From NCBI GenBank assembly GCA_016169945.1, contig JADLSH010000363.1, positions 248,001-312,000 on the forward strand: DNA of 64,000 bases, read 5' to 3'. Every line of letters starts with the position of its first letter. The stretch's first letter is position 1. This DNA comes from Trachythela sp. YZ-2020. Taxonomy: Eukaryota; Cnidaria; Anthozoa; Malacalcyonacea; Clavulariidae. The notes under the pieces were generated by a model. It worked only from the letters and a program-made list of their open reading frames with translations. It did not search any database and was not told where the DNA came from. The translations under genes and the position numbers were made by a program. Shown here one piece after another: positions 11,355 to 50,629 of the stretch.

Positions 11355-13780
11355 CTAAAGACAAAAATATATTTCAATACAACTTTGTGTGTAGTAACGA
11401 CGTAATCTCTTTGTGTGTAGTACCGACGTCATTCAACGTCGTCACCTAAATTTTCCCACAACAATGATTGATGAACGAACAGATAATCACATCATGGCTG
11501 GGTGTACCTTAACCTTGTCTTGTAAGCGAAAAGCAAGTACTTTTTTCAATATTTGCATACGTATTTTCCAAACCCATTTTATGAACTACAAAGTGATACG
11601 AACACGTTTGCATTTGCAGTTTCATTTTAATAGAACGAAATGTGGTTAAATTTATGGTCCAATTGTTCTATTGCTTGTTTGCAGAATCATGACAAATATA
11701 CATCGGACTGTTTAAGGCTAGTTCGTTAAATTGGAGATTCCGCACAAAATTAAACATTTTAATAGCATGGCTACAAAATTTCAAATTCATTATATCGTCA
11801 CCGTATCAATGTTTGGTGACTGTTGATTCCATCAATAGAAGTCTGAACCGACGTTCGCCTCGACTTTACCTTTCAATAAGTCGTTTGCAACCAATACCAA
11901 AGAAATTTTCGCCATTTGGATGAAATCTGAAATGGACCTTATGCATAATGACGTTCTCTTGTGGTGCGTGACTACCACTACCAGAATATTTTGCTATATT
12001 TACTATCTTCTTCTATTAAGATATTGCGCAAAGCATTCTGGGAGTAGTAGTGACGCACCGCCAGGAAAGGTCATCTATTGCAAACAAGCAGAATACTTCG
12101 TCAAGTTCATCAAATACGTCGGCGGTGACGTCACGTGAAAAAAACATAAAACAAAATTCCAAACTTTGCGCATCTCGCTCCATAGATCTAGAACTGAACG
12201 TTGGAGGGTTTTTGTAGAAATTTCGAGAGAAAATTCTATACAAGTTTTAGACCTAACCAAGAGTAGTTGCGAAAAATGCAACTATAGGCCCTCCCGGTCG
12301 GAAGTGTGTTTCATCAAGATATTCAAGCTGACAACACGGTTCCGTTCGCCTCTATGGACAGGTTCTGTCATTGGTATTATAACAATGAATCCCAATAGAA
12401 CTAGAGAATAGATTTCTTAAACAGTCACAAACACTGCCCACATTTGCTCACGGAAGCAAATCACAACGCAAGTTCATTTTAATTATATATTTACCGAAAT
12501 TCGTACGATTATAGCTATGCTCGAATTTGTCTGGTTTCATGCGCCACGTGTGAACTCGAAAGGCGAGATCGTGCACATTTGAGTACGCTTTCGAATGCAT
12601 CCAGTCCTGTTTGAACGTATATAAATTATAGCATAAAACATTTAATTCGTCAAATACGTGTTCATCATAGAGTATAAAATAGGGTTTTCAGAGAAATACG
12701 ATCGCACACATGAAAGTAGGCATTCACACTATAATAGTTTTATATTCTTGAAAGACAAAGAATTACAGCCAGAAGATAAACTAAATTAATATATATTATT
12801 TATAATTATATATTATACATAATGTACAAAACATATTGACGTAAAATAATTGGAAATGCCATACGGAATAGCATAGCTAAACTTGAAAATTATGAACTGT
12901 CCGTTTACGGTCTGCTGTATGTTCCATGGTTTGCATTTATTTTGATACATTTTTTTGTTCAGCTCATCTAGGCGAGCATCTAGGAAGCTTACTTCACATA
13001 TTACATTAATTAATAACTAATCGCATTTACAACTACAACCACTGATCTCAAAGTTAGAACTGGATAGTGCATCTGCTATGCACACCACAAGGCTCTAGGT
13101 GCGTAAGCTTTAATGTCAATCTATTTGAAGACGAAATCCTACGAGTACCACGCAGTCGTGGACAATTAAGGTATAACCGTTACGATTACTACCTTTACCT
13201 CTAAATATAAGCCTCCAGTATCACTCACCAAACTGTCATCAACTCACGAGACAGTTCACTTTGGTTGATCCAAAATCTGTTAACCCTATTATATATAAGT
13301 TCACGAGGTTAGACCTATATGGACGAAACTAGCATCGCATTTTCGCAGGTTTTATTACTGTTTTGGAATATACATTAATGTGAAAAAGAAAACAAACCAA
13401 GTTCGTAGCTACTATAGGCAGAGCCTCAATCAGTGAATCTGAATTATCGTCAGTATTTGTATTTATCGCAATGCAAACGTATAAACAACTGTTAGAATAC
13501 CAAGTGAACATGAACGTATCTGCAGTCACCTTCACGGGATCTTCTCGAGATTGAACGAAAGTCGCAGGCATGTAAGCGAAGACCAGACTTTTACATGAAT
13601 GTTCCTGTCTTCGTCCAAGCTGGAGCTTGCTTTGTTGACGGAAATGTCCATGGAAAATGGGAAAATTTAAGATGTAGAGCCATTGTGCAAGGTCGAGCAG
13701 GAGAATCATCAAGATACAATAGAACATGACCCTGGTCTGGACAGTACCATTGACTAAGACAAACTAAGGGGCTGTTTATA
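11355..13780. other. Intronic/intergenic left-arm sequence, no gene recognised
   Basis: Only short frames occur and none resembles a known protein. The one structured item is a SINE tail at about 12240-12300, which shares GCGAAAAATGCAAC and GACCTAACCA with the SINE at 9324. The remainder is AT-rich and matches 21930-24344 in reverse. Confidence 0.6.
12240..12300 (-). repeat. Detached SINE tail fragment, left arm
   Basis: Contains the complement of TTGCATTTTTCGCAAC followed by TTGGTTAGGTCTAAAAC, the same tail as the tRNA-headed SINE, but without a tRNA head. Mirror at about 23411-23471. Confidence 0.6.
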
Positions 13781-13783
13781 TAG

Positions 13784-13819
13784 AAGCCGGGCTGGCTCGC
13801 TGACCGGGCCAGCCCGCTT
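13784..13819. repeat. GC-rich hairpin, left arm
   Basis: AAGCCGGGCTGGC faces GCCAGCCCGCTT around a ten-base loop, a strong stem in otherwise AT-rich DNA. TATATA lies next to it. Probably a repeat-family terminus. Mirror 21894-21929. Confidence 0.7.
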
Positions 13820-14144
13820 AGCGAGAGCTCGGCGACTGACCGTCCGAACACATCACTATACTCTACAGATTACAATGTAATTCAATTATTTATCAATCAA
13901 GCCCAATGCTGAGGATCTCAATCCTTGAGGTGTATTTATGTGTTAGTGTTACATGAATGTTTCACCACATGTCAATCCCTGGGGCTAGGTGCTATGACCA
14001 ATATCTGCTTATATTTTCCCACCAGAAGATTAAAAAAATGACCTGGTTTCAGGTCAAACTTTCCCCAGAAAGGTTTCAGGTCAGACTCCAGATTTAAAAA
14101 TTTCTCCTAGAATATATCTAACACCCTCCCTAGAATTTGGCTAG

Positions 14145-15862
14145 CGATGATCAACTTTATTTAAACACACTAATCTTTTCAACTATATACAGCTGGTTTC
14201 CAAAAGAGGTGTGCTAACATTACAAAATACATAACAAAAGATACTAAGTATATTACAAATTTAAAAAACTATAAAACTATAACTATATTTACACTCTATT
14301 TAGTTCAACAATATATGTTACAATGTCTAGGTCGAGGAAGAAAGCTTTTGACAAAATGAATCGTAAGATACAGAATTTCTTATCTCTTCCGGTATCTGAT
14401 TCCATAGTTGAGCCCCGCAATAGCTAAAACTCCTTTTTAAGAATTCAGTCCTAGGCGGTGGAATACAAAGGCTAGTCGAAGAACCCCTTAGATTGTAATC
14501 ACTTACTGTGTTAGTTTTTGAAAAATATCACACAGTCTGTGAGGGGCTAATTTATTGACCGTTTTGTACATGAGCCTGGCTTTCATTTGTGCCCTACGTT
14601 CTTCTAACGATATCCAGTCAAGAGAATTACGTGCCAAAATAGACTGTCCATGCTCATTTTTAAAATTCATGATCAGTCTAGCCGCTCTATTCTGAAATAT
14701 TTGAAGACGTTCAGCCTGGACTTTGCCAATCGTATCCCAAACTTCGCAACAATAATCAAAATGTGGTTGGATTAAAGCATTATATACCAATACTAAGGTG
14801 TTTCGATCCACAAATTCCTTAAGTTTCCTAATGGCTCCATTACCCGACGATATTTTACTGGCAATGAATTCAATATGTTTTTTCCAATTTAAATTCTCGT
14901 CAATCTGAACACCAAGTACTTTGGCATGTTTCACTCGTTTGACCGGTTTGCTATTGATTTTAACTTCAGGCTGGACAGCCGTATTATTTATTTTATAGTG
15001 AGATCCAATCAAAACGTACTCGGTTTTCGCAATATTTAAACTAAGTCTATTTGCAGACAGCCACCTGTGGACATTCACCAGGTCTTCATTTGCCCTCCTC
15101 TCAACTTCATCTAAAGTTTCACCTACAGCTGTTAGGCTGGTGTCATCTGCAAACATTCTAGATGTTGTATGCTTGAGACAATTAGGTAAATCATTTATAT
15201 AGATGATGAACAAAAGAGGGCCGAGTATACTTCCCTGGGGAATACCACAAGTTATTTTTCTCTGATTTGAAAATATGCCTTTTAACTGACATTTTTGTGT
15301 TCGGTGCGTCAAATAACAACGCAATAGGGTAAGCGCGTTTTTCCCAAATCCATACATTTGAAACTTACGTAACAGTATTTCGTGGTTGACAGTGTCAAAT
15401 GCTTTCTTTAAATCGAGAAAAACTACTAAATTATAAAGGCCGCGGTCCATGTTGACATACCATTCATTTGTACAATCTAAGAGTGTAGTTGTTGTAGAAT
15501 GCGAAGGTCTAAAGCCATATTGATGTTCTGATAGAATATTTTCGTTCATCAAATAGTCAAGCATTTGATCATGCAAAATCCTTTCCATCAGTTTACTCAC
15601 TACTGGTAGGATTGAAATTGGTCTATAGTTGTCTAGCATAGTCCGCTGGCCTTTTTTAAATATTGGAATTACCCTTGCAGCTTTCCATTCCGAAGGAAAC
15701 TGCTCTGAAATAATTGACACATTAAATATCTTTGTCAAAGATCGTGCAATAGCAGGAGCTGCAGTCAAGAGAACTTTAGCTGAAATTTTATCAATACCCG
15801 TCGCTTTCGAGGAAGACAATTTGGTTATATGCTTAAAGACTGTTGCCACATTTACTGGCTGA
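14145..15862 (-). mobile_element. 5'-truncated L2/CR1-like LINE, left-arm copy
   Basis: Minus-strand LINE whose 3' end carries an AATAAAGTTGATCATCG sequence and whose 5' end stops inside the reverse transcriptase domain at about 15862. In the right arm the same insertion lies at 19849-21568, so it predates the inverted duplication. It sits in an intron of the collagen gene. Confidence 0.85.
14503..15849 (-). CDS. LINE reverse transcriptase, left-arm copy
   Basis: A 448-residue frame with the blocks SKATGIDKISAKVL, NYRPISILPVVSKLMERI, the first Asp block VVFLDLKKAFDTVNHE, CGIPQGSILGPLLF, the FADD box and the C-terminal HFDYCCEVWD and LQIFQNRAARLI. No genuine ATG opens it because the element is 5'-truncated. 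Relative to the right copy one A is missing in a homopolymer near 14513-14521, so about the last 50 residues are out of frame here. The active-site residues are intact, but the element cannot be autonomous without its endonuclease. Confidence 0.85.
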   Translation of the reverse strand: MATVFKHITKLSSSKATGIDKISAKVLLTAAPAIARSLTKIFNVSIISEQFPSEWKAARVIPIFKKGQRTMLDNYRPISILPVVSKLMERILHDQMLDYLMNENILSEHQYGFRPSHSTTTTLLDCTNEWYVNMDRGLYNLVVFLDLKKAFDTVNHEILLRKFQMYGFGKNALTLLRCYLTHRTQKCQLKGIFSNQRKITCGIPQGSILGPLLFIIYINDLPNCLKHTTSRMFADDTSLTAVGETLDEVERRANEDLVNVHRWLSANRLSLNIAKTEYVLIGSHYKINNTAVQPEVKINSKPVKRVKHAKVLGVQIDENLNWKKHIEFIASKISSGNGAIRKLKEFVDRNTLVLVYNALIQPHFDYCCEVWDTIGKVQAERLQIFQNRAARLIMNFKNEHGQSILARNSLDWISLEERRAQMKARLMYKTVNKLAPHRLCDIFQKLTQ

Positions 15863-16386
15863 AATGTGGCAACATTTCATGTGGCAACATTAGCCTTTCC
15901 AATCAAACCCATCTTTTGCCACTACTGGTTCAGAGTGTTGTGCATTGGACTGTTCAAAATGAAGAAAATTGGGAGATAAAACTGAATAATTAATAAACCA
16001 ACATTTTCAAGAACATATCATTAGCAAGTAGTTTTAATATCCAAAAAATAAGCCTCAATTGTAGCAATTAAGTCTTGCAGCAATTTGATCAGTATTAATA
16101 TTCACAAGACAGTTTATTTCTCAAATTTGAAAGTAACAAATCAGAAGAGTCCAGAAGAAACTCCCCTGCCATGAGTGCTGCAATGTTCTTGACCCTGATT
16201 CTATCTTCCCAATTCCTGCAATAAAAGAAAAGGACAATTTATATAGAGCTTCACAGAGCATCCTTAGTGTTTATGAAAAAAAGTGAAAAATGCTTTCAAA
16301 GCTTCCTCATTGTAAAGACATTGTTGATAAAATTGTTACATTTGTTCTGGGTACTCTTAATGTTTCATCATTATAATATTCACAGA
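15863..16386. other. Inner end of left palindrome arm, no gene recognised
   Basis: Exact or near-exact reverse complement of 19325-19848. The last shared base is 16386; beyond it the two sides differ at once. Confidence 0.7.
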
Positions 16387-27800: not shown

Positions 27801-27994
27801 GTGGTGATGAAGGTGATAATGATTGTGGTCATGACCAAAGTACAAAATATTGTTCCCACATGCAAATTTCAAGTTGAATGTTTTAAGGCGATTGTTAATT
27901 CTCTGTTTTCGTTTCTGTAAGCGCTTTGAAAACGTACGTGTCCGAAGGTTTTAAACACAAATTTCTCTATAATATACTTTAATACGATCAAGAT

Positions 27995-28429
27995 ATGCCG
28001 CCACGGAGGCCGCGGAAAGAGCTAACGTCCAAGAGAGTTCGTAATTCGTTAAAAGCAAATATATTGCCACTGGTAAGTGTACGGCAGTTTCATTATATGC
28101 GTTTAAAATCTTTTCCCGATGCGACTTGTATCGTAAACTTTTGCGAACTTACAGATCAATGGCGATTTGAAAGCAATCGCCTGCAGGGCTACGTGGCGTG
28201 TGATGCAAGAAGACCTGGAAATGGCCAAGAACCTAATTTCCAGCAAAGGTTACAGTTAGACGACGTTTTGAGCAGAGTAAACGGCGTGCAATTCTTTTCT
28301 CGCGTCACGGCCGTATCTACAAATGCCAAAAACGCAAAGAGTGCAGCGAAGCGAAACAAACGAGGCCGAAGATGTTTATCCTGCAGTGGCTTATTTCATC
28401 GTGTACAGAGAAACCGATTCTTGCGATGA
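27995..28429 (+). pseudogene. N-terminal part of SF3 helicase-like protein, right arm, frameshifted
   Basis: Opens with the same ATG and MPPRRPRKELTSKRV N-terminus as the left copy. It then departs from that copy's frame through several small deletions between about 28088 and 28330 and ends in a shifted frame. The main frame resumes in 28323-30620. The left arm is intact over this stretch. Confidence 0.75.
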
Positions 28430-30620
28430 ACAACAAATGTACAAATTACTGCACAATGAAGACATCGATCCAGTAGTGCACACTATAACATCGAGAGCTA
28501 ATAATGTGTCGAGTAACAATCTAATGGATACTGCTTCACGTCGCCTATTTCAAGTGGTTAAAGATCACAACAACCAACTGATAACTGATATGGTGAACAA
28601 GTCTAATGAGTATTGTTTGTCAAACTCTTCTCGCACCACGTCCGGCGAAGAAAGTGATCATAGCGTTGATGCAAACAATCCTCATGCACGATTTCCGACC
28701 GTTCCATGCCGTGTGGTCGTAGTCAACAGCGCAGAATTTGATCATGTACTTCATGAATCAATATCACAATTGAAATCGGATGGCATGACCGTCGACATTC
28801 AAACATTGTTGACTGCTCAAATGGACGGCCCGTGTCTTTCATCTACCACCGACGAGTTACCAACAACTGTAAAAAAAATAGCAACGTTAATGAAAAATTG
28901 CAACCACGCACTACACCGAGGTGAGATCTACGCCAAACCAGAGGGAGCAACAATGTCGTACGTTAACATGATGAATGTTGAAAGTTATCTTCATAAGATC
29001 TTGGTCAACGAACCCATAAGATCCAGGGTATTGAAACATTTCTCGTCGCTGCTGAGAATCCTCTCGCACCCTGCCTGTGAAATTATTCCACAAATTGAGT
29101 TTGACTTGGACTTGATTGAAGTTTCCAATGGGTATTTCTTCAAAATATCAGCTCGGGACTTTGTTCGTCATGCTATCGCGCTGGAGAAATGTGGAATCCT
29201 CTCGCCAAGAGCATTTGTCCCCTACGACTGCCAAAAGGCCCCTCAACCTGGGTATTTTGAAGAAGGCGTGCTAAATTCTTTCCCAGACGTCGTTACCAGA
29301 GCCAACTTTTCAAACAAGTTTTACCAGTGCTTAATGGCATCAAAAATGCCACACAAAACCCGAAAGTTGGTGCTCGAAGGTCCAAAAGACTCGGGGAAAA
29401 CATCGTGGGCATCAATATTCCATCGAATAATTCCAGCAGGGAAAATTGCCTCAATCACCGGCGAGCGACAATTTTCGGCCGCGATGATCACGGCAGATAC
29501 CCAGTTGGTGCTGCTGGATGAATGGTCAGCATACACTCTTCAATCAGATCTTGCCAAAACTATCCTGCAAGGCGGTTGGATGGTTACGGCGGTCAAACAT
29601 GGTTTGCCTCGGACGGTTATGAACAACAGCCCCTTTTACATTACAACGAATCAAGTACCCGAATTTCGTGACGATGATGAAAACGTGCATCGACGCATTA
29701 CGATATTCCAAACGACATCTTTGCCGCAAACCATTCCTGGCGCAGATCGCTGGATGTTCGACCATGCGATGGACTGTGTTGCTTGGTTGGGCAATGAAAT
29801 TACAACATATCGTGAGCACATCGACCAGGAGGAGCTGTGGTACGAGGAAGCCAGTACAACGGAAGAACAGATCATTGAAAACAACGACGGTTTCAAACTT
29901 TTTGACGCCGCAGAGATGGCACGAATAACAAACCAAGATCTTGTCCACACCGACCTCTCTGATACGCAGCCACCAACATCAACTGTGATACACGCATCGT
30001 TTGAAGCCGAGTTTAACCGACAAAGATTGGCGCGTAAAAGACGCGGTAGAACAGTTGGCTGTTCTCTTTCGCGTAATTCCTCCCAATCAGATCAAAATCC
30101 AGCAGTACGTCGTCGTGAGCGGCGATGTACGTTCACAAGCGATGAAAGTTCCTCTGTAGATATTTTCCAACAACGCGAGCGTCGCGAGAATACGAATTCG
30201 GAAAGTGACGACGAGCTATTCCACTCCACAGTTCGTAAACGTGCTTGCCTGAAACGAGGCAAAGTCTTGTCACCTACTCCCTCCCAATCAGAGAAAGACG
30301 AACGCGAAATTGTACCACCTCTTCATCAACAGTCGTGTAATGAACCGTCTACTTCCCTCCACATTCCTGATATCGAAACCAACACAATAGCAACTGATCA
30401 CGGCCCCCTCCACTCTTCTGTTGCCAAGAACGACTCGCGTAAACGGCCGAAAATTTGCTGTAAAAGAAAGAGCAAACCGGTCAGAAGAAACATCAGTCGG
30501 CCACATTTCCACTTAACCTCCGACGCTCTGCTTCACGAACTTGATCGCTACAATGAATCCGAACGAGATGAGACATGCACCACACCTCCACGTACAGAAA
30601 CAGCAGAACCTACTAAATAA
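28323..30620 (+). CDS. Superfamily-3 helicase-like protein, right-arm copy (N-terminus shifted)
   Basis: A 765-residue frame holding the whole helicase core. Walker A GPKDSGKTSW is at residues of about 352-361, Walker B LVLLDEWS about 395-402, and the SF3 motif C as SPFYITTN near 435-442. A conserved-looking VHRRITIF follows at about 455, in the place of the SF3 arginine finger. The order A, B, C and the TTN ending of motif C are the hallmark of E1/NS1-type replicative helicases. The C-terminal 270 residues are Ser/Arg-rich with basic clusters. The frame ends early in AEPTK at 30620 where the left copy continues. The product probably acts as a nuclear ATP-dependent replication helicase of a mobile or virus-derived element. 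No endonuclease (HUH) motif was seen. Confidence 0.75.
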   Translation: MPKTQRVQRSETNEAEDVYPAVAYFIVYRETDSCDEQQMYKLLHNEDIDPVVHTITSRANNVSSNNLMDTASRRLFQVVKDHNNQLITDMVNKSNEYCLSNSSRTTSGEESDHSVDANNPHARFPTVPCRVVVVNSAEFDHVLHESISQLKSDGMTVDIQTLLTAQMDGPCLSSTTDELPTTVKKIATLMKNCNHALHRGEIYAKPEGATMSYVNMMNVESYLHKILVNEPIRSRVLKHFSSLLRILSHPACEIIPQIEFDLDLIEVSNGYFFKISARDFVRHAIALEKCGILSPRAFVPYDCQKAPQPGYFEEGVLNSFPDVVTRANFSNKFYQCLMASKMPHKTRKLVLEGPKDSGKTSWASIFHRIIPAGKIASITGERQFSAAMITADTQLVLLDEWSAYTLQSDLAKTILQGGWMVTAVKHGLPRTVMNNSPFYITTNQVPEFRDDDENVHRRITIFQTTSLPQTIPGADRWMFDHAMDCVAWLGNEITTYREHIDQEELWYEEASTTEEQIIENNDGFKLFDAAEMARITNQDLVHTDLSDTQPPTSTVIHASFEAEFNRQRLARKRRGRTVGCSLSRNSSQSDQNPAVRRRERRCTFTSDESSSVDIFQQRERRENTNSESDDELFHSTVRKRACLKRGKVLSPTPSQSEKDEREIVPPLHQQSCNEPSTSLHIPDIETNTIATDHGPLHSSVAKNDSRKRPKICCKRKSKPVRRNISRPHFHLTSDALLHELDRYNESERDETCTTPPRTETAEPTK

Positions 30621-30708
30621 TGCACCACCACTGACCACAATAGTGCAGAAGTTGTAAATATCGAAGGGACGCGTCGACAATTGCCGAACAACAACGACAC
30701 CTCTAAAC

Positions 30709-31380
30709 TTGGATGAATGTCAGAAAGATTCCTCATTCCCACGTTTTCTGGCGCTATCAACATGGGTGTTAAATGACAGGAAATATTATCAGAGGATTGT
30801 GGAACTTTGGGACTGGAACTTTCACAATAAAAAACTATCAAAGTTCCACGCATTGTCGTTTTGTTCGCGAAGGGACAAGGCGGAGAGGAGGCTGGAGAAG
30901 AGAGAAAGAGATTTCTGGAGTCAGGCCGACCCCGATATCGACGCCTGGATGTTGGTGACAGGAAGAACACGTGATGTGTTTGATCTTAATGGTTTCGTTG
31001 CGAAGCACGCGAAGGATTATAAAATTTTACAACGCGTATGTTGGCCTTTGGGGCGCCAGTTTATGATGCGTGCAGTTTAACTGGAATTACGTCAAAATGC
31101 GGAAATGCGTTTGGAGTTCGAGTGATTAAAAATTTTAAAGGACCGCCCCAGACCACCCCCCCAAATTTCTCGCTTTGTAGCTAAGCACTCATTGCCATGG
31201 CAAGCCAGGTTCCCGCTACTTCGGCTACCTTCGCGATGACGCACAGTTCAAGTAAAAGTAATGAATGATCGTTGTCCCATGTTAAGAGCAATTCAAAACA
31301 TGAACAATCGTGATGAAGATGAAGATGTGCCTAATGTTGTGTTAAGCTCACAAAAGTACTTTGTAACTACTAAATACTAA
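30709..31380 (+). pseudogene. C-terminal tail of helicase-linked protein, right arm, broken
   Basis: The frame 30709-31080 carries WVLNDRKYYQRIVELWDWN and FWSQADPDIDAWMLVTGR, the ordered tail also seen at 4426-4860. After LQRVC the sequence is interrupted by about 200 bases absent from the left arm (31036-31237). The last residues up to YFVTTKY are found again at 31250-31380. Confidence 0.7.
31036..31237. other. About 200-base insertion in the right helicase tail
   Basis: The left arm reads straight through this point; the right arm has extra sequence starting TATGTTGGCCTTTGGGG. CGC lies before it and ACGC after it. I see no clear inverted repeats, so the mechanism is open. Confidence 0.55.
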
Positions 31381-31985
31381 AATTGTGTAATTCACTCGTA
31401 AATTACACCGTTGAACATTGGCGTGACTGTACTTTCATAAGTGTATCATTAGGCGCTTTCCATTTAATGGCCAGATCGGTCAGACCAGAATTTTTGTATC
31501 TCTGTGTTAATTGAAACATCTGGTCCAGGTTTACCAAAATCAGTTAAAAATGGACCTCTTCATTAGATCGAAATTTTGCGGTCGGATCGGTGCGAAGACC
31601 AATAATTTTGTTTTCCATTCAATGATTTTATCGATCTCACCTGTCAGACCGTTTTAATGGAAATCGCCCATTACTAACATTGTAGTGTTGGACATCAAAC
31701 ATATATAACAGTAATTATATTTTCATATCATAAGTGTGATATTGTATCTGAAATGAATGTGTGCAGAATTCATAGATATTGAATGATTAAATGTTAAAAA
31801 CATGTCGTAAGATTGTCTTATATAATAGGCTAAAATTTCCAGAAAATATGACAAATAAACAGAGCGAAGAGTTTGCCCGCACTGTTTCATTTAACCAAAA
31901 TTGTCGTAGGCAAGTAAGCAGCTATCCTGCATAGAAATAGGTTTAGGTGGAATATAACAATCTTTAAAGTCTTATCCAAGAGATC
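31381..31985. other. Non-coding flank of the helicase gene, right arm
   Basis: Mirror of 3841-4425. No gene. It shows clearly more differences from its mirror than the collagen or LINE parts do. Confidence 0.6.
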
Positions 31986-32480
31986 TGGCTACCTGGCTAC
32001 CAATATAAATCTATAGTAAAACACCTGGCTACGGTGTATGGTAGCCAGGTGGTAGCCAGGTGTTTTACTATATAGATTTATATTGGTAGCCAGGTAGCCA
32101 GTTGTTTTCATTTTAATAAATTTAATAATTGCCAATTTTGATACTTATTAAAATGCAAAACAGCTGGCCACCTGGCTACCAATATAAATCTATAGTAAAA
32201 CACCTGGCTACCACCTGGCTACCATAGACCATAGCCAGATGGTAGCCAGGTTTTTAAATATAGGTTTAAAATATCTTCAAACCTTCAATTAGTTTAAAGT
32301 TAAGTTTAAAGTTTAAAATAAAATAAGTTGAAAGTAGTAAATTTAAAAATTGTCAAATTTTATTACACTTAAACTTATTAAAATGCAAAACAGCTGGCTA
32401 CCTGGCTACCACCTGCCTATGGTCTATGGTAGCCAGGTGGTAGCTAGGTTTTTAAATATAGGTTTAAAATATCTTCAAAC
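31986..32480. repeat. GTAGCC iterated palindromic array, right I
   Basis: Same units as 2566-3840 (GGTAGCCAGGTGG, CCTGGCTACC, ATAAATCTATAGTAAAACA), lying between the 3' end of the helicase gene and the 3' end of the recombinase gene. Confidence 0.85.
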
Positions 32481-32509
32481 TTTCAATTAGTTTAAAGTTA
32501 AGTTTAAAA

Positions 32510-33906
32510 TAAAATAAGTAATAAAATATAATAAAATCGAGCTGTGCTTTTGGTCTTCTGATATCCACTTTTGTTCGTTTGGTAGAAGCACAGCGGAACT
32601 TTGGGTTTCAATTATGTGTCTGTACCTAGTTGGGTGGATGTACTTTCCGATAACTTCGAACACTAACACGCTAAAAGGTTCCGTAAGTTTTTGAAACTGT
32701 TTACCATTTCCAGTGGCGTAGCCAGCCCGCCGATTTGGTCCCGCTATGCAAATTTCAAATCATCATTATTCATTTCTTTAGAAATTGATTGTTTTCACCG
32801 TCAATGAACACGAACAAATTTGCATAGCGGGACTAAATCGGCGGGCTGGCTACGCTACTGACCATTTCGATTCACCAAAATGTTGTCACAAGTAGGAGAT
32901 AGAAGGGGTCTAACGTACGTGATATATTGTTCTAAAAATTTGATGCTAACTTCGTCGAAATATACACTATCAAATCCATATCGTTTGGCCGTTTTGAAAT
33001 TTTCTGATCTACCATTCCGTCATTTCTTTTGGCACTTTCAAACATACGCAAAGTTAGGTGCTGCCGTGCTGGTAGGTCATAGGGCGACAACCTTTGACTT
33101 TGAGAAACAAGTATGCTGCAATGAATCGGGTCGCAAACGTTACGTCGCCCGGCTTTATTGAACTAGGATTTGTCATGCAGATGTTTAAAACTGATTCATA
33201 ACGTTCCATGTGAAATGGAATAACGGATTGTACTTCGGAAAGGGTGGCCCAACATCTAAGCGATTCAATGTCTAAATCGGTTGTCCAATTTGATCTCATA
33301 TCTTTAGCCAGGCACTTTCGACCTCTTTTCACATAAACCTTTGGTAACGGCAAAGTTTTGAAGCACACATGCAGGCGGTGTATTAAACTTGCGAAAGTCC
33401 AATAAATCTGCTATGCTTGAAACGTAAGCAATCCTTCCCGATTGCCCAATACCCCATTTTTTGTCTAGGCTGTCAACGAAATTCGTCAAAAGCTGCGGAG
33501 ATCCCAAGATATAGTCGATCAAATTTGGAGAGGAAAGCATCTCTTCTTCCGCATCGCCACTCTCGTCGCAGCAAAACTTTACAAACTTCAAGGCTCTCGT
33601 TACTGAAATGTCAGATTGTTTAAGAGATTTCCCCCCGCCACAACTGCTTTGTAGCCATTGCGAAAAAGAACGTGCGAAGTCATTATCTGTCGAGCAGCTT
33701 GGTATTTTTGACTCGTTTCCGTTTGTGCCATTCGTCGTAGGAGAAGTGTGCAAAGTATCGACGGCTACGTTTGGCTTCTCGTCGAAATAGTGATACCAGG
33801 CATGTTTTGCTTTTACATGCTTACGAGAGCCTCTTCGGCTTGCGAATCCTGGATGCTCGCAGCTAGTTATTGGACAATGGTTCAGCCCATCGCTACCTTG
33901 CATCAA
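32510..33906 (-). pseudogene. C2H2 zinc-finger tyrosine recombinase, interrupted
   Basis: ATG at 33906 opens a frame with a C2H2-like finger (CPITSCEHPGFASRRG, then HVKAKH). An alpha-helical region follows (ISVTRALKFVKFCCDE; GIGQSGRIAYVSSIADLLDF), like the core-binding part of phage-type integrases. After a frameshift near 33350 comes FATRFIAAYLFLKVKG and CRPMTYQ, where Arg is a candidate first catalytic Arg. Further shifts occur near 33030. After a 150-base MITE (32711-32860), 32487-32669 gives GKYIHPTRYRHIIE, a candidate HxxR box, and EDQKHSS. The segment that should hold the nucleophilic Tyr runs into the GTAGCC array. I recall similar proteins in invertebrate genomes but have not checked. 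The gene converges with the helicase. Confidence 0.65.
32711..32860. mobile_element. 150-base hAT-like MITE inside the recombinase gene
   Basis: TIRs of about 44 bases beginning CAGTGGCGTAGCCAGCCCGC and ending with its complement, flanked by the perfect 8-base duplication ACCATTTC (32703-32710 and 32861-32868). Eight-base duplications and CAG-G ends fit hAT. Non-coding. Confidence 0.9.
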
Positions 33907-34033
33907 ATGCAGTCGCCTTGGCCAACCGACTTCCAGTCAACTGTAGGCTTTTTGCGTGCAGACATAAAAATCAAACAAATGTTCGGCGATCGAGAGCGGT
34001 TTGGTTTTTATATTAAAAGAGATATACATGTAT

Positions 34034-34620
34034 GGTAGCCAGGTAGCCAGCTGTTTTACATTTGAATAAGTTTCAAAATTGCGCAATTCAACTTAAACTT
34101 ACTAAAATGCAAAACAACTGGCTACCTGGCTACCAATATAAATCTATAGTAAAACACCTGGCTACCACCTGGCTACCACCTGGCTACCATAGGCCATAGC
34201 CAGGTGGTATAGCCAGGTAGCCAACTATTTTCGATATAAATAAGTTTAAGTGTAATAGAATTGGCAATTTTTCAATTTATTACTTTCAACTTATTTTATT
34301 TTAAACTTTAAACCTATAACTTTAAACTAATTGAAACTTTGAAGATATTTACACCTATATTTAAAAACGTGGCTACCACCTGGCTATCGTCTATGGTAGC
34401 CAGGTGGTAGCCAGGTGTTTTACTATAGATTTATATTGGTAGCCAGGTAGCCAGCTGTTTTTCATTTTAATAAGTTTAATAATTGCGCAATTTTGAAACT
34501 TATTAAAATGCAAAACAACTGGCTACCTGGCTACCATAATAAATCTATAGTAAAACACCAGGTGTTTGGCTACCATAGGCCATAGCAGGCCATAGCCAGG
34601 TGGTGGCCTTAGTAATAATA
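34034..34620. repeat. GTAGCC iterated palindromic array, right II
   Basis: Same repeat units as the other arrays, lying just beyond the 5' end of the recombinase gene. Together with 31986-32480 it encloses that gene. Confidence 0.85.
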
Positions 34621-34714
34621 GGTGTTTGTTTACTATTTAATATGGTGTTGTAGCAAGTGGTTGTAACCAACTTGTATTAGATTGTCCCCAATTGCAGAAT
34701 ATTCTGTTTTTGTA

Positions 34715-35047
34715 ATAGGAACGACATAAGGGAACGATATGTGCATGAAATATCGTTCCCTTTCGGTAAACTTATAAGGAACAAGTTTATAAGGGAACAA
34801 ATATTAGCAAACCAACAGAGTATTTCTGAAAACGTTCCACCTAGCGGAACATGTTAGTCCTATCAAGCGGAACAATGAAAAGGAACGAAGTTTGATGTTC
34901 CTAATTCAATCCGTTCTTAAACGGTTCCCATTTACGGAACATAAAGCAAAAGGAACAACGGTATTCAGGTCGGAACCATTGTTCCTTTTGATTCGCCGTT
35001 CCTTTTGAAAACAGGAACACCAAGCACACTTTACATACGTTCCTGTT
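34715..35047. repeat. GGAAC/GTTCC motif cluster
   Basis: About eighteen GGAAC or GTTCC pentamers in some 330 bases, in both orientations and at irregular 10-30 base spacing, often as CGGAAC or GTTCCTTTTG. The pattern continues in part after the insertion at 35052 (35908, 35970). No frame is shared among the repeats. It may be part of an element into which the hAT-like unit inserted. Confidence 0.6.
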
Positions 35048-35051
35048 AATT

Positions 35052-35777
35052 CAGGGGCGGCGCTAGAGGTGGGGGTGTGGGGGGTGGAACACCCCCCACT
35101 CGTCAGTGACTCGGCAAATTGTTTTCCCAGTCGGCAAAATGTGAATTGGATAGGAAGAAACGAGAAACCAAACATCTGTGCGCTTTTAGCATGTAGAAGA
35201 ATGTCAGAATGTGCAGTGAATCCCGATATTGAACAGATCATAGGCAAATGTTTTAATGAAGAATGAATAAGATAATGAAAATTTAGCGTAAAAGACATAT
35301 TTACATCCGCCATTTTGTTTGCATTTAAAAATGCCATCCGCCTCATTCTGAAATTAGGATTAAAAAGGCTACGAATACGATACGATTAGGAATTTGACGG
35401 ATGGAATTTAATAAAAACGATACCGTGGCAATAGTTCTTTTAATTTCAACGTCACGTGATCGTAATCAACCAATTAAATGGCGAGAATCTACTAAGTAGT
35501 TACATAATCAATACTAAATAGTACTGATTGATATTTGATGGAACGTTTCAACTACGAAAACTCATTAGCATTACAAGGATATAAATAATTCATTGAACTG
35601 CATACACAGTTGTTGTGTTTAATGGAACAATCACAAAGCGAGCCGAATAAGTCTCGCAAACGCAAGAGAGTTAAATTAGAATGCCTAATATGTCAGAGTC
35701 GGCAAAACTACAAAATGACTCGGCAAAATTTCATTTACACCCTCCCCCCCAATAAAACAGGGCTAGCGCCGCCCCTG
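35052..35777. mobile_element. hAT-like non-autonomous element (726 bases)
   Basis: Ends CAGGGGCGGCGCTAG and CTAGCGCCGCCCCTG are perfect complements. Flanks CCTGTTAA (two bases away) and CCTGTTAT are an imperfect 8-base duplication. Several ACTCGGCAAA units lie near both ends, as subterminal repeats. No transposase is present. Confidence 0.8.
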
Positions 35778-36103
35778 CCTGTTATGGGTTTTAAACATAT
35801 GCAAAAAACTTCACAAAATAAATTCCCTTTTTTAGCATACTGTATGTATTGTGCATACTTTTACCGCTTGAAATACCACCTTCACATTATCGTACTTCCA
35901 CCCAATTCCATTGTTCCTGCTCAATCCGGCCAATCATGCGGAAATACTTGCTATAGTGATATACTATAGGGAACACATTTTACGGATACGCTAGATGATG
36001 ATGATGGTGGTTGGAATTGATGGTAGATAACAAATATAATCATTCGTGTGATTGATGGCGATATTAATGATGATGACTCAACGTTGTTCTATATTCCTCC
36101 CAG
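35778..36103. other. Intron/upstream sequence of metalloproteinase copy 1, no further gene
   Basis: Mostly AT-rich, with GAT repeats near 36000 and the acceptor TTCCTCCCAG at 36094-36103. No exon matching the signal-peptide exon at 42334 was found upstream of copy 1. Confidence 0.6.
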
Positions 36104-36410
36104 GAAACTCTACCTGCTGCAAAAATGACGAGGGTTGAAGACGGCGTTTATAAATGCAATCATCACCGAAGTGACCATCACCACAACTACCACCATCACC
36201 ACCGAAAACGACGTTACATAGCAACACCATTTAAATTTCACACGATGATCGTTCTGTGGCATGTGACAAATTTCTCTGCTAAGTTACCTCAGGATGTCCA
36301 ACTTAAAGTGTTCACAGAAGCTTTTAAGAAATGGCACGTCGTCTCGAGATTGAATTTTTCTTACACGGCTAATGTGACTGCAGCACATATTAAAATCAGC
36401 TTTTTGACAA
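36104..36410 (+). CDS. Matrix metalloproteinase copy 1: pro-region and start of catalytic domain
   Basis: Acceptor CTCCCAG, phase 0 in, and a GTATGG donor leaving phase 1. The exon reads ETLPAAKMTRVEDGVYKC, then the His-rich run HHRSDHHHNYHHHH, the furin-type site RKRR and FHTMIVLWHVTNFSAKLP, KVFTEAFKKWHVVSRLNF and AAHIKISFLT, which follow the first strands and helix of an MMP catalytic domain. The usual PRCGxPD cysteine switch is not present; one Cys stands before the His run. Reading past the donor reaches a stop at 36434. Secreted or membrane-proximal protease by family. Confidence 0.85.
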
Positions 36411-36509
36411 GTATGGTATACTATGGTAGTAATTAGTGGCTTATGATATTTTGCGAGATGAAAGGCGAAATTGCGAAACGGGAGCCCTGACCTAGTATCG
36501 ATTACCAGC

Positions 36510-36907
36510 CAGGGGCGGACTGAGCAGTCGGGCAATCGGACGCGGACCGAGGCCCGGAGAATTTTGAGGGGGTGGGGGTGGAATTACTGGAAGGATTTCC
36601 TTTTGTTGAAAATTCACATGGATCTGAGCTTCTTGGAACACTATTGGCCCCTTCCGAGTGCAAGCTAGTTCGGCCGCCAATTTGTTACGGCGAAGAAAAT
36701 GGAAAATGAGTGAGCGCGAGTGAATTTTTCCCTCGACGTTAGTGCGTTTGTGTACTTTAGAAAAGTCTGTTGTATGCAACAAAGGAAGTATATAAAGCCA
36801 AATTCCTATTTTACACACTAACTTTATAATATTAAATACTAGATATTTATACATAGGCCCGGATTTTATTCCTGACCGACACCTAAAATGCTGTCAGTCC
36901 GCCCCTG
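36510..36907. mobile_element. hAT-like MITE in intron of metalloproteinase copy 1
   Basis: Ends CAGGGGCGGACTGA and TCAGTCCGCCCCTG, flanked by the perfect duplication TTACCAGC (36502-36509, 36908-36915). Copy 2 has the empty site with a single TTACCAGC at about 49920, so insertion came after the gene duplication. Non-coding. Confidence 0.92.
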
Positions 36908-37149
36908 TTACCAGCAATCTTTAGGGGAATGTGAGCTCCCCGAATTTGCCATTTCGCAAATTGCCGTTTCGTTTTCAAAATACCATAAGCTGTAAGTGAT
37001 GTAAGCGTTACATGGCAGCAGATGGTGGTCAACGTCAGTCTCAAAAGGGCTAAAACACTTCGAGAGATGTAATGCACACACGTAGAAACGCACACGGCAC
37101 ACGTTGTAACAAACCTGCAGCAGACTTGTACCAATCAGTGCTGTTTTAA

Positions 37150-37365
37150 CAATTTGTTACCAGGATGTGTTCGCACTGCTTGTTCCCAGCTTGTTGACAG
37201 CTTGCTACAAGGTTGTTGACTCAACAAACTTGTTACAAGTTGTCCCAACGACTTGTTATCGTCCTGCAATTCAACAACTTGTTAACAAGTTGTGAGTGAC
37301 AACCTTGTAGCAACTTGATGACAAGCTTGATACAAGTCTGTTGCGAACACATCTTGTTGAGAAGA
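37150..37365. repeat. ACAAGTTG/CAACTTGT quasi-palindromic repeat, copy 1 intron
   Basis: Overlapping units of ACTTGTTACAAGTTG type in both orientations, including CAACTTGTTAACAAGTTG. Also present in copy 2 (50165-50430), so older than the duplication. Confidence 0.7.
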
Positions 37366-37551
37366 TGTGACTCTTCTTTTATGCCGATTTTTGCTGTATT
37401 TGATTGTAGAACAACTATTTTAACATAAGTATAAGCACCGTCAAGTTACATAGCGAAATGAAAATTGTTTCGTTTTCTTGACTTCATCAGCATGGCGTCA
37501 TGTATATATGTTTACGCGGGTGTTTACTGTAAATCATTATTATTATCATAG

Positions 37552-37827
37552 ATCATTTCAATGATGGAGCTGGCGGAACCTTGGGACATGCCTATGATCC
37601 ACACCCTAGCAATGGCTTTCCTGGCGAAATTCACTTTGATGAGGATGAAAACTGGGTGACAACCACAACAGGAGGGACAAATCTACGAGCAGTTGCTTTG
37701 CACGAGATTGGTCATGCTATAGGCATTAAACACTCCAATGCAGCCCAATCAGTCATGAAGGATGTTATAGTGAACAACAACACTGAATTGTACGATGATG
37801 ATATAGCCGCGATACGTTGGATGTATG
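37552..37827 (+). CDS. Matrix metalloproteinase copy 1: zinc-binding catalytic exon
   Basis: 276 bases, phase 1 in and out. FNDGAGGTLGHAYDP and GEIHFDEDENWV form the structural zinc/calcium region. HEIGHAIGIKH at 37701-37733 is the HExxHxxGxxH catalytic motif (three zinc His and the general-base Glu). The following Met of SVMKD is the Met-turn. All catalytic residues are present, so this copy is predicted active. It joins the hemopexin-like exon at 38153 through WMYG-KC. Confidence 0.95.
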
Positions 37828-37849
37828 GTAAGTAAATCACAACCAGCAT

Positions 37850-37919
37850 CATCATCATTATCAGCATCACATCACCACCATAATCATCACCATCATCATC
37901 ATCATCGTCATCGTCATCG

Positions 37920-37955
<36 letters not shown>

Positions 37956-37965
37956 ACTAAGACAG
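37850..37965. repeat. CAT/CGT microsatellite, copy 1 intron
   Basis: ATC/CGT trinucleotide repeats. The same place in copy 2 (50935-51003 and 51657-51680) is split by a hAT-like element. Confidence 0.9.
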
Positions 37966-38152
37966 TGCAGCACTTAGGTGGTCAACTCTAAAAGACTGTG
38001 ACTAAATTGTCCACAGTATGTCTTGGCAAATACATATAATGGAAACAATTGAGCGTCATTTTCTCGCTCAAAATTGATGTCAATACATTTGAAGTTGACC
38101 ACCACGTGTAGCCGCAGTATTAAACACTTAACTGAAACCATTTCAACCCTAG

Positions 38153-38382
38153 GTAAATGCGAGGTGCGAGACATAACCGCGGTCTTACATGACAGATATT
38201 CAGACCTGAGTGACACTGTGCTTGTTATGAACAACAACAAGGTCTGGCGAATCTCGGTTCATAATGGTGAAATCTATAACGAGAAAAATGAAAAATGGCC
38301 AAAAGACATTCGAGACTACTACAGAGCAACAGACCCGATGTATGATGAGGTTTTCCCGTTAAGAGCTGCGACGTATATAAAG
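38153..38382 (+). CDS. Matrix metalloproteinase copy 1: hemopexin-like exon 1
   Basis: Acceptor CAACCCTAG and donor GTAAAC. KCEVRDITAVLHDRYSD and VLVMNNNKVWRISV give the start of a hemopexin-like propeller blade (the usual D-A-x-G-E-x-Y-F-F-K-D-x-x-Y-W pattern, diverged). The entry Cys fits the first Cys of the disulfide that closes the propeller. Ends in phase 0. Confidence 0.85.
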
Positions 38383-38398
38383 GTAAACACAATCTTAA

Positions 38399-38656
38399 GC
38401 TCTGGTGAAACGAGAGTGAAAGTTGATGAGTTAGCAAGCGAAAATTTGCATGCCACGGTCAAACGAGAACAAGAGTTGTTAGATGAGAGTTGACTGGACA
38501 TTACCACGCGTACCAGTCAAACGAGAAAAAACTCTCATGAACTCATCAAAATTTGAACCAACTCAACGAAAGTTGATAAGAGTTGACGGTCAAACGCGAG
38601 CGAGAGTTGCAACTCTCATTGACTCTCATCAACTCGCATCCTCGTTTGACCGGGGT
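38399..38656. repeat. MITE-like repeat with GAGAGTTGATGAG ends, copy 1 intron
   Basis: The left part TGGTGAAACGAGAGTGAAAG and the right part ATCCTCGTTTGACCGGGG are imperfect complements, with repeated GAGAGTTGA/CAACTCTC blocks. Also in copy 2 (about 53081-53239 and 54583-54676), where a Mutator-like element splits it. Ends are approximate. Confidence 0.6.
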
Positions 38657-38817
38657 CCAACACACTGCACAGCACACCTACTACTTGCACTGACGACGAC
38701 CGCGCTTACGGCTAGAAAGCTTTGGCAAATACATATATGTGGTGTACGAAACAAAATATGTAGTTATATTTATCTCCATCATGCAAATATACAAGGTTCA
38801 TTTTGCTTTCTACAAAG

Positions 38818-39114
38818 GGTGATCACGATGTCTATCTATTTGGAAAAAACCATTTCATTCGCAAGCAACCGTATCGAGACTGGCAGATGACAAACGGACG
38901 TTTTTATGAGTTCAGAGATCATAAGATATGGGAGGGAAATTGGTGGGGCTGGACCGAAGTTCCCGAAGGTCCGCTACCGTATGCCCCTATGAACCTTATG
39001 CACACGCCCGATTTGTACAAACATTTCCTAACAAACAACGCCAAGTTTGGAGCCTCGTTTGAGGTCGGCTGTTGTTACTGGCAACACTTCTTTATGAATG
39101 GAACGCACTACAAG
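38818..39114 (+). CDS. Matrix metalloproteinase copy 1: hemopexin-like exon 2
   Basis: 297 bases, phase 0 on both sides. GDHDVYLFGKNHFIRK, NGRFYEFRDHKIWEGNWW and YAPMNLMHTPDLYKHF, with a Cys-Cys pair (EVGCCYWQHFF). Hemopexin blades are recognisable from the YxFxxxxxxR rhythm. Nearly identical to 54805-55101. Confidence 0.85.
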
Positions 39115-39119
39115 GTATT

Positions 39120-39475
39120 GTGTTATGTGGTGTTATGTGGTGTTGTGTGGTGTTGTGTGTGTGGTGTGTGTGGTGTGTGGTGTTGTGTGTGGTGTGTGTG
39201 TGTGTGTGGTGTGTGTGGTGTGTGTGGTGTGTGTGGTGTGTGTGGTGTGTGTGGTGTGTGTGGTGTGTGTGGTGTGTGTGGTGTGTGTGGTGTGTGTGGT
39301 GTGTGTGGTGTGTGTGGTGTGTGTGGTGTGTGTGGTGGTGGTGTGTGGTTGTGGTGTGTGGTGGTGGCGTGTGTTGGTTGTGTGTGGTTGTGGTGTGTGG
39401 TGGTCGTGGTGTGTGGTGGTGGTGTGTGGTGATGGTGTGTGTTGGTGGTGTGTGGTGGTGGTGTTGTGTTGTCGG
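39120..39475. repeat. GTGTGTGTG-rich microsatellite, copy 1 intron
   Basis: Long run of GTGTGTGTG and GTGGTG units that starts right after the donor. All open frames in it are low-complexity artefacts. Copy 2 has a different TTGTGT/TTGTATTG version (55102-55330). Confidence 0.95.
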
Positions 39476-39644
39476 ATCGTATATGAACAGGGCTTAAGAT
39501 GTACAAACAGGAGTAAAAAAGTGGTTGTTATATAACACGGAACGCTTTAGCTTGTGATTCGTCTTGATTGTGATTTTCATAGCTAAGAAAAACGTCTATT
39601 AATAAAGTTTTCATTATTTTGATCATAATTATTACTATTTTAAG

Positions 39645-39857
39645 GTATCGACGCACGACTTCAATCTACTCTCGACTGAAGATATGAGCGTGAATTTCCC
39701 AGGAGCGCCGCGAAACCCCGATGCATCATGGTACGACATGGTGAATAAGGAGTGGTATTTCTTCAAAGAGGATAAATATTACAAATGGGATGGAAGTGCA
39801 GGAATGTTTACTGACAGAGGCCCCATCAGTCTCCTGTGGTTCCCTGTTTGCGACTAA
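39645..39857 (+). CDS. Matrix metalloproteinase copy 1: terminal hemopexin-like exon
   Basis: 213 bases, phase 0. VSTHDFNLLSTEDMSVNF, NKEWYFFKEDKYYKWDG and a final SLLWFPVCD before TAA. The last Cys three residues from the end is where MMP hemopexin domains close their disulfide. No transmembrane or GPI tail is visible, so the enzyme is probably secreted. Confidence 0.9.
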   Translation, partial: VSTHDFNLLSTEDMSVNFPGAPRNPDASWYDMVNKEWYFFKEDKYYKWDGSAGMFTDRGPISLLWFPVCD

Positions 39858-40620
39858 AACCAGTTCGTAGTTTCAACTGCACATCCAAACGACGTTTTAT
39901 GATTCAGTTTCGAATTCAGCCGCGGGAAACGGTGCCTTTTCTATGCATGTTTCTAAGCCATTTTTATACCCTAACTCAGATGCAACTCCGAACAGGTGAA
40001 TTTTTAACGACAACGCGTTAAAGCGTGGCATTTAGAGTATATCCGACAAAGCATTTTTTGCTGAAATTTTTACGTAGCAACATTCTAAAATAAAAAATGT
40101 ATGACCTATAGCATTAGGAAACGTTTTCTATGGATTTATAAATGACAACGCATTATTTGCTGAAATTTGTATTCCTTAAATATTTTTGACCATTTGAAGA
40201 ATTTCAACAGGGTTGAAATTTTGAGATTTTTTAACGACAAAGCATTCTTTGCTGAACCTCTTTGGTAGCCTTTACAAGTTAGAAAATAGAAAGTGTTTTA
40301 AAACGAACAGCCTTTCGCTGAAATTTTCATTCGTTCTTAGCTTTTACCTGTGTATTTTTGGACGATTTGAAGAAAAAAACTGAAAAGTATTTTAAAAATG
40401 TAATAAAAAGAAAGAGATAAATTTAATGATTTATGAATGATCGCATCGTAATTCTAAAATTTGAAAATTAGATTTATTCCAATATAATATTTTTTAACGT
40501 AGAAATTCGATCAATTTAAGACTCATTATTGAAATTAGAATTATATTTGGCATTTTGAACTGATTAGAATAGAACTAAAAGATATATAGTCAACATTTTA
40601 ATGCAAAGACAATAAAATTG
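39858..40620 (+). other. 3' UTR region of metalloproteinase copy 1
   Basis: AT-rich, with repeated ACGACAAAGCATT/TTTGCTGAAATTT blocks. AATAAA at 40611-40616 is the likely polyadenylation signal. Copy 2 has a shortened version. Confidence 0.6.
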
Positions 40621-41528
40621 TAATGATAAAATAAAATAGAGGATTGATAAACTCAAACTTGTGTGTCGTCTTTTGTTGTATTATCTTAACGAAACTGGAA
40701 TGCGTTGAGGCCTATAAGCCCTGCCTTTTACCCTAATCCCAATGCCGACCCTCTGTATTTTCGATGTTTATTATTTCTTTATTAACTCGGACATGAGCGT
40801 ATTGAGCATGCTCCTTACCGCTGAGTTAAACCCAAGAGGGCATTGTTACCACTGATCCGTGATTGTTACTGGACGTCTATCTATTCTGCTCTGACTTGAT
40901 GTGCTTGCGTTGTAGTTGGTCGAATTCTGTCCTATGAACCGAGGGTGTATATGCAGGTATGCTTGACCACGAAGATTCCGACAACATAACAAATTTCCAA
41001 TTTTCCGACGGGTCTCAACGATAGGGGGGCCATGCCCCCCTGCCCCTCCCCCCGGCCACGGCGCCACTGGTCACATTGTGTTTGTACGGGCATCACTATT
41101 TCTTGACCGAAGGAGGGATCCTCCCTTGAGGGGGTCAGTTTAACAGCATATGTTTGATGCAAATTTGAAGCAAATAAAATCCCCACTGAACATATTTGAC
41201 CATGCGTTTGCCCTCAAAACTTGCCATCGCACAGTTACATTGTCATTGAAAGTTGAAACAATCCAAAAACGTGGTGATGTTCGTATAATCCACAGTTACA
41301 ATAAACAAAACATGAATGCCGATTAATTTCGTGTGAAGACATTAAAATTTGTCGATATAAAGACATGAAACTTGACGAAAGCACATTACTTTTATTATTA
41401 TTATGGTAATAATAAAAGTTATTATGGTATAATACATATTTTCGCACACATATGTGAATTGCAATATGTTTACAAAACTAAGAATTACAAATACGCTAAA
41501 AATTTAAAAATAGTAAAAAAAATCTATC
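40621..41528. other. Duplicated downstream flank of metalloproteinase copy 1
   Basis: Up to about 41150 this matches 56050-56745 of copy 2 in blocks such as CTTACCGCTGAGTTAAACC and TTTCTTGACCGAAGGAGG, marking the 3' limit of the tandem duplication. A 13-base stem hairpin (ACTTTTATTATTA) lies at about 41385. No gene. Confidence 0.6.
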
Positions 41529-49279: not shown

Positions 49280-49460
49280 GATGATGGTGGTGGTGATCAC
49301 TGATGGTGGTTAAGATTATGGTGGTGATGATGATGATAGTGGTTAGGATAATAGTGTGATGATGATGATGGTGGTGGTGAGAATGGTGGTGATGGTGGTC
49401 ATGATAACGATGATATAGATGATGATGTCATTTAATGGCGTTGGTGATAATGATGATGGA
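49280..49460. repeat. GAT/GGT microsatellite upstream of copy 2
   Basis: Imperfect GATGGT trinucleotide repeats. Shorter relatives lie at the same place before copy 1 (about 35995-36015). Confidence 0.85.
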
Positions 49461-49536
49461 ATTGATGGTAGATAACAAATATAATCATTGGTGATATTAA
49501 TGATGATGACTCAATGTTGTTCTATATTCTTCCCAG

Positions 49537-49828
49537 GAAACTCTGCCTGCTGGAAAAATGACGAGGGTTGAAGACGGCGTTTATAAATGCAACAATCATC
49601 ACCGAAGTGACCATCACCACCGAAAACGACGTTACACAGCAACATCATTCAAATTTAACACGATGATCGTTCTGTGGCATGTGACAAAATTCTCTGCTAA
49701 GTTACCTCAGGATGTCCAACTTAAAGTGTTCACAGAAGCTTTTAACAAATGGCATGTCGTCTCGAGATTGAATTTTTCTTACACGGCTAATGTGACTGCA
49801 GCACATATTAAAATCAGCTTTTTGACAA
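49537..49828 (+). CDS. Matrix metalloproteinase copy 2: pro-region and start of catalytic domain
   Basis: 292 bases, phase 0 in and 1 out. Same layout as copy 1: GKMTRVEDGVYKCNN, a shorter His run (HHRSDHHRKRRY), the RKRR site, and MIVLWHVTKFSAKLP. The 15-base length difference from copy 1 (307 bases) is a multiple of three and lies in the His run, so the frame is kept. Confidence 0.85.
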
Positions 49829-50164
49829 GTATGGTTTACCATGGTAGTAATTAGTGGCTTATGATATTTTGCGAGATGAAAGGCGAAATTGCGAAACGGG
49901 AGCCCTGACCTAGTATCGATTACCAGCATCATTAGGGGAATGTGAGCTCCCCGAATTACTTTGTCCTAATGTGAGCTCCCTTGCCATTTTGCAAATTGCC
50001 GTTTCGTTTTCAGAATACCATAAGCCGTAATTGATGTAAGCGTTACATGACAGCAGATGGTGGTCAACGTCAACTTCGTCAATCTCAAAAGGGCTAAAAA
50101 CACTTCGAGAGATGTAATGCACACACGTTGTAACAAACCATCAAACCTGCAGAACTTGAACCAA

Positions 50165-50430: not shown

Positions 50431-50629
50431 ATTTTTATGTTTTGAGTATCCTCTTCTTTTATGCCGATTTTTGCTGTATTTGTTTGTAGAACAACTATTT
50501 TAACATAAGTATAAGCACCGTCAAGTTACATAGCGAAATGAAAAATTTCGTTTTCTTGACTTCATCAGAATGGCGTCATGTATATATGTTTCCGCGGGTG
50601 TTTACTGTAAATCATTATCATTATCATAG

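Follow-up and report, generated by a model that had tools for sequence, protein, structure and literature searches.

Organization of the element

The window analysed here is a 64,000-nucleotide stretch of Trachythela sp. YZ-2020 DNA (bases 248001-312000 of contig C332), and the genome searched for related copies comprises 578 Mb in 396 contigs. By comparison with copies elsewhere, one element of 8,164 bp, copy A, occupies positions 27835-35998. Each end has an ATGA core, and TGA/GGT simple repeats surround the element, which exceeds the extent given in the original prediction. Its right end agrees with the alignment of a paralogous right flank at 49442, which starts at 35996. The features of copy A are listed here, with types A1, A2 and B as described further below.

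27831-27834, no strand: left ATGA core copy; ATGACCAAAGT likewise opens copies in C62, C108 and C240
27835-27845, plus strand: left terminus CCAAAGTACAA; CCAAAGT is common to A1 and B
27995-28072, plus strand: predicted helicase exon 1, 26 codons, read by eye; C240 has a similar first exon
28073-28154, plus strand: predicted helicase intron
28155-30620, plus strand: helicase exon 2, with a frame break close to its start and a premature end relative to the C62 copy (open frame of 1070 aa)
28323-30620, plus strand: helicase ORF with the SF3 domain
31986-32449, no strand: GTAGCC array 1
32538-33965, minus strand: broken C2H2 / putative tyrosine recombinase gene, matched in pieces by P0107 residues 1-429
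32711-32860, no strand: hairpin-like insertion of about 150 bp in the recombinase gene, with a visible inverted repeat; copies C322 and C108u2 lack it
34031-34608, no strand: GTAGCC array 2
35050-35777, no strand: extra stretch of about 728 bp, not present in copies C322 and C108u2
35976-35994, plus strand: right terminus of the AATTTTACGGATACGCTAG type, shared with C108, C240, C322 and C79
35995-35998, no strand: right ATGA core copy

The helicase and recombinase genes

The original prediction described a helicase gene converging on a second gene with a C2H2 finger and tyrosine-recombinase-like boxes, and this arrangement is borne out. The motifs GPKDSGKTSW, LVLLDEWS and PFYITTN are present in the ORF at 28323-30620 on the plus strand, and broken minus-strand frames contain CRPMTYQ and HPTRYR. 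Judged from its Walker A, Walker B and motif C sequences and a match to the E1 profile, the helicase is an SF3 helicase of the E1 type. Against Pfam, the helicase P0002 matched PF19263 (E = 2.3e-4) and PF00519 (E = 7.8e-4), both under the curated cut-offs (19.1 bits against 26.5 for PF00519). Among 39 aligned helicase proteins, PF00519 was matched by 27 at E<=0.01, with a best value of 5.4e-9, and PF19263 by 21; P0109, the first of the 39, matched neither at 0.01. A PDB sequence search with the helicase returned weak E1 matches alone, with E values of 0.17 and 0.34. The PHROGs search gave nothing useful, and the few named relatives of both proteins belong to the octocorals Paramuricea and Dendronephthya.

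The recombinase proteins P0107 (560 aa) and P0108 (579 aa) carry a C2H2 pattern at the N-terminus. Over 70 aligned recombinase proteins, residues R302, K330 and R400 are invariant, and H397, H427 and Y436 are conserved in at least 90%; K330 is the putative catalytic lysine by our own assignment. The C-terminus is Myb/TRF-like, with PF00249 matched by 61 of the 70 proteins and PDB profile matches to Myb and TRF1; the other PDB sequence matches fell on the Myb part or were false. For the recombinase, no Pfam phage-integrase catalytic or Crypton-type model was among the matches of the 70 members at E<=0.1; weak matches to a SAM-like integrase model were seen in 8 of the 70 (best 0.0055). The recombinase profile matched 80 XerD sequences weakly and in register, with a core score of 26.0, where none of 10 column shuffles exceeded 17.7; the hhalign probabilities were low, at 2.7 and 5.0% (48 and 41 columns), and the core score of 26.0 goes with the 5.0% value. 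From the conserved residues and this weak profile match, the CRPMTYQ/HPTRYR protein is likely, though not proven, to be a tyrosine recombinase.

Two recombinase comparisons gave dN/dS values of 0.17 (C322 with C108u2) and 0.20 (C108u2 with C273a). The closest gene pairs carry no clear purifying signal, with values of 0.48-2.21 in six helicase pairs and 0.34 and 1.92 in two recombinase pairs; the youngest pairs hold too few changes to judge dN/dS. In pairs between families A and B, synonymous sites are saturated and dN is about 0.37.

Element families and module exchange

Complete copies with defined ends, as had been anticipated, were found, and their ends are exact. In family A, copy comparison places ATGA next to CCAAAGTACAAAATATTG at the left end and ACGGATACGCTAG next to ATGA at the right end. 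In type B, AAG adjoins CCAAAGTCGAAAAT on the left and follows ATAAGGAA(A or T)TGCAGG on the right. Copy A of the window is of type A2; C240, C322, the first unit of C108 and C273 are of type A1; and C22, C128, C38, C2, C390 and C284 are of type B. Whole units align at 96-97%. Proteins of the second family, B, are 44-55% identical to those of A; this family uses AAG-rich repeats as insertion sites and keeps the GTAGCC arrays. The recombinase gene has the same orientation as the helicase in type B and the opposite one in type A. Between A1 and A2, the recombinase half and the right end show about 94-97% DNA identity, in contrast to helicases that are about 50-53% identical. A near-identical recombinase half joined to a divergent helicase indicates that the two halves have been exchanged.

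Three similar helicase loci, at C351:8499874, C351:8407959 and C2:418779, have a recombinase 10.7-13.6 kb downstream and are perhaps a longer form of the element.

GTAGCC arrays

The window contains 87 GTAGCC sites against a shuffle mean of 13.04, and none of 100 shuffles reached 87. The predicted arrays are therefore real, but they sit inside the element and do not flank it from outside. In all eight units counted, which represent A1, A2 and B, GTAGCC occurs 25-54 times per element, against Markov means of 1.7-2.2. In B and A1, most of these sites are grouped into two blocks that oppose each other, located between the helicase and the recombinase. The bases next to GTAGCC vary by type, the repeat being GTAGCCcGt in A1, tGGTAGCCAGgT in A2 and tgGTAGCCACaCtT in B. 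Since A1 and A2 have the recombinase in common and not the helicase, this array difference follows the helicase, which suggests that the helicase may be the protein that binds the arrays.

A third type was read at C392 (C392:497701-499900, 2.2 kb; L049 1-2200), where GTAGCC is absent from the region read and 21-bp CTAATTTCTATAGAAGAC repeats form inverted arms of up to 433 nt. Inverted repeat arrays are present in all four types read (A1, A2, B and C392); we make no claim that GTAGCC is universal across types, because the C392 region has another motif. The possibility that the arrays are an unrelated satellite was rejected, as GTAGCC is kept across types whose array sequence otherwise differs.

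Insertion sites and mobility

An empty and an occupied site are provided by C62:6861742 and C108:62420-71072, the latter holding an 8,653-bp A1 element. Both contigs have a common left flank, which in C62 leads directly into an A2 element and in C108 into A1 and then A2, so that the A1 element lies exactly at the end of another element. Identity between the contigs is 98.8% over the left 3 kb and 99.6% over the right 2 kb, with the 11 bp ATGACCAAAGT covered by both alignments. C62 holds two copies of this flank, and C62 and C108 may represent two haplotypes or two duplicated loci; the insertion is clean either way.

Head-to-tail units occur in C240, C108 and C128. The junctions in C108 and C128 are direct and contain one core, and simple repeats lie between the units in C240. 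These head-to-tail junctions fit circular intermediates.

Among the type B sites, C38 and C284 have repeats on both sides and C2 has them only on the left; in C128 and C390, the left flank consists of long repeats, and the same units recur in a short run on the right. The site in C22 is purine-rich. Scored by autocorrelation, the left flanks of all six B sites and of all four separate scored A sites rank among the 2.1% most repetitive 60-mers of the window; this scoring counts the three C108/C62 left rows as one site and omits the C273a left flank (a stretch of N), the C108 element-element junction (a left row and a right row) and two left ends that the exact pattern missed, those of unit 1 in C240 and of C322. 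Right flanks are repeat-like at fewer sites, namely four of seven in A (top 2.3%) and two of six in B. The element type is real and recently mobile, and its mechanism of integration is well supported. The integrating element of the original prediction is upheld by the exact ends, the empty and occupied pair and the pairing of the two genes.

Pairing of the two genes

Across the genome, scores were obtained for 59 of 289 candidate helicases and 150 of 163 candidate recombinases, giving 53 helicase loci (from 68 rows) and 102 recombinase loci (from 150 rows of 158 matches), counts that are lower bounds. Among the matches listed, a recombinase lies within 10 kb of the helicase at 33 of the 53 loci and within 20 kb at 40, where uniform placement would give about 0.35%; the same 33 and 40 were obtained in an earlier count with fewer recombinase rows (99 loci). 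At 31 of the 33 paired loci, again among the matches listed, the recombinase is downstream of the helicase. The co-occurrence within 10 kb that had been foreseen is thus found, together with GTAGCC arrays in every unit counted.

Helicases that routinely lack a recombinase would have spoken against such an association; among the matches listed, 20 of the 53 loci have none within 10 kb (13 within 20 kb), against the 33 that do. In the other direction, a helicase was found within 10 kb at 34 of 102 recombinase loci and not at the other 68, again among the matches listed; the recombinase family is therefore wider than the element. Recombinase copies are not, however, always inside a different known element.

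Five contig sizes in the protein database (34153, 313987, 488635, 519560 and 632645) are common to helicase and recombinase matches, in a comparison of contigs >20 kb that drew on 103 of 104 helicase matches and the 120 recombinase matches listed of 923. Shifted controls of this comparison gave zero coincidences in 99 of 100 cases. Taking equal size to mean the same contig, these results suggest that helicase and recombinase are also paired in other sequence sets.

Interpretation and relation to known systems

With its precise ends, empty and occupied sites, direct junctions, left simple-repeat flanks and paired genes, the element is best read as an integrating, episome-like transposon of about 8 kb that encodes an E1-like SF3 helicase and a C2H2 / tyrosine-recombinase / Myb protein; we place the probability of this reading at roughly 0.7. 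The recombinase would join the element ends at the short core, ATGA in family A and AAG in family B, to yield a circle. This same core would serve for insertion of the circle, either into simple repeats or at the end of a resident copy, giving head-to-tail arrays. The helicase would bind the inverted GTAGCC arrays, or their equivalent, and replicate the circle as an episome, for which papillomavirus or polyomavirus origins offer a comparison; helicase-driven replication from the arrays is, we infer, probable. Recombination between inverted arrays could flip the recombinase gene and swap modules. We speculate further, at somewhat less than even odds, that the element is a capsid-less integrating plasmid of animals that supplies its own initiator helicase, has origin arrays of the iteron type and alternates between an episome and recombinase-made insertions in simple repeats, its helicase, origin and recombinase modules being exchanged between lineages.

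In kind, the element is a recombinase transposon, and there is a fair chance that it deserves a class of its own. No animal transposon combining a helicase with a recombinase was found described in the titles and abstract openings of the open-access papers listed, and a name may exist in Repbase only. Cryptons are the closest named class: by description, they share the tyrosine recombinase residues R-K-H-R-H-Y. To our knowledge, no helicase has been described for Cryptons; unlike them, the present element carries a helicase gene and iteron-like arrays between the same ends. The word helicase is absent from the main text of a Crypton paper (PMC3212892), which describes a tyrosine recombinase, terminal direct repeats of 4 to 6 bp, no long terminal repeats and a proposed circle. 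The 4-bp ATGA of family A falls within this range and the 3-bp AAG of family B is shorter, inverted ends being judged by eye.

An alternative is that the element is a Crypton-like transposon whose helicase has some other role, for example in repair or regulation, and that it is amplified by host replication only. Its ends and insertion do resemble those of Cryptons as the main text of PMC3212892 describes them, and no helicase was found within 10 kb at those 68 of the 102 recombinase loci, among the matches listed; yet the helicase is retained across types whose helicases are merely 44-53% identical, and inverted arrays accompany all four types read. We consider this alternative unlikely.

Somewhat less probable again is an endogenised small DNA virus, papillomavirus-like or of the RepE1 cressvirus type, that acquired a recombinase. 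Papillomavirus E1 and the RepE1 cressviruses have SF3 helicases of the same E1 type, and sea anemones are reported to contain RepE1 cressvirus sequences that are apparently integrated (PMC11071296). Against such an origin, the element has exact recombinase-type ends and integrates in the genome between them, three scans of IMG/VR gave no relative of either protein, and the ORFs of the C22 unit include no capsid candidate: apart from a 139-aa frame antisense to the recombinase, the only frames of at least 110 aa are those of the helicase and the recombinase. In some Polinton-like viruses and virophages, an SF3 helicase occurs together with a tyrosine recombinase, but these viruses have capsid genes, a larger size and another helicase type; judged by ORF content, the present element has no major capsid protein. 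Crustacean endogenous nimaviruses (majaniviruses) resemble it by description, with a C2H2-bearing tyrosine recombinase and microsatellite insertion (PMC10871703); they measure 278-401 kb, against two-gene units of about 8 kb here that have no virion gene candidate and no core genes of large dsDNA viruses.

Finally, the coincidence of two unrelated repeats, which the original prediction had allowed for, is rejected as highly improbable on the pairing counts: helicase and recombinase do also occur apart, but their pairing (33 of 53 loci among the matches listed, against 0.35% expected) is far above chance, their order is constant, their ends are common and the units can be aligned at 96-97%.

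Most DNA transposons of animals are considered to rely on the host for replication. If the integrating, episome-like transposon is the correct reading, an element that has a replication initiator of the tumour-virus type alongside an integrase, but no capsid, would form a link between transposons, plasmids and small DNA viruses. It is also a further case of a probable recombinase with simple repeats as its target.

State of the copies and a second copy in the window

Both copies in the window are broken. In copy A, the recombinase gene has frame breaks and the hairpin-like insertion, and about 131 residues are missing from its end, among them the catalytic tyrosine. ORFs were listed for six units (C322, C240u1, C108u1, C22, C128u2 and the copy in the window), and in none of them are both genes uninterrupted; helicase exon 2 is a single open frame in C240u1 and C108u1, as is the recombinase in C322 and C22. 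C16, among the helicase loci that have no recombinase nearby, has an intact helicase exon and represents a truncated element. An apparent 2,039-aa fusion ORF at C273:1640370 was rejected as an artefact, since it crosses a 5-kb stretch of N. Stretches of N adjoin the recombinase and element ends at C273:1634978-1640001 and to the left of C273:1722501.

The second window copy is as follows.

7782-2565, minus strand: copy B, truncated, with helicase frames at 7629-4426 and arrays at 3839-2565, without a recombinase

Copy B lies inside and adjoining an 11.8-kb inverted duplication (4570-16386 against 31038-19325, 97.8% identical, with a spacer of about 2.9 kb), which may be a true palindrome or an assembly effect. 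Each arm of the duplication holds a tRNA-Ser(GGA) gene and a partial copy of the element. A segmental duplication (35996-40948 against 49442-56360, in pieces 82-97% identical) starts at the right end of copy A. At 168-2562, frames that by eye resemble a non-LTR reverse transcriptase are present, and their (TCTA)n tail adjoins the copy B array at 2565.
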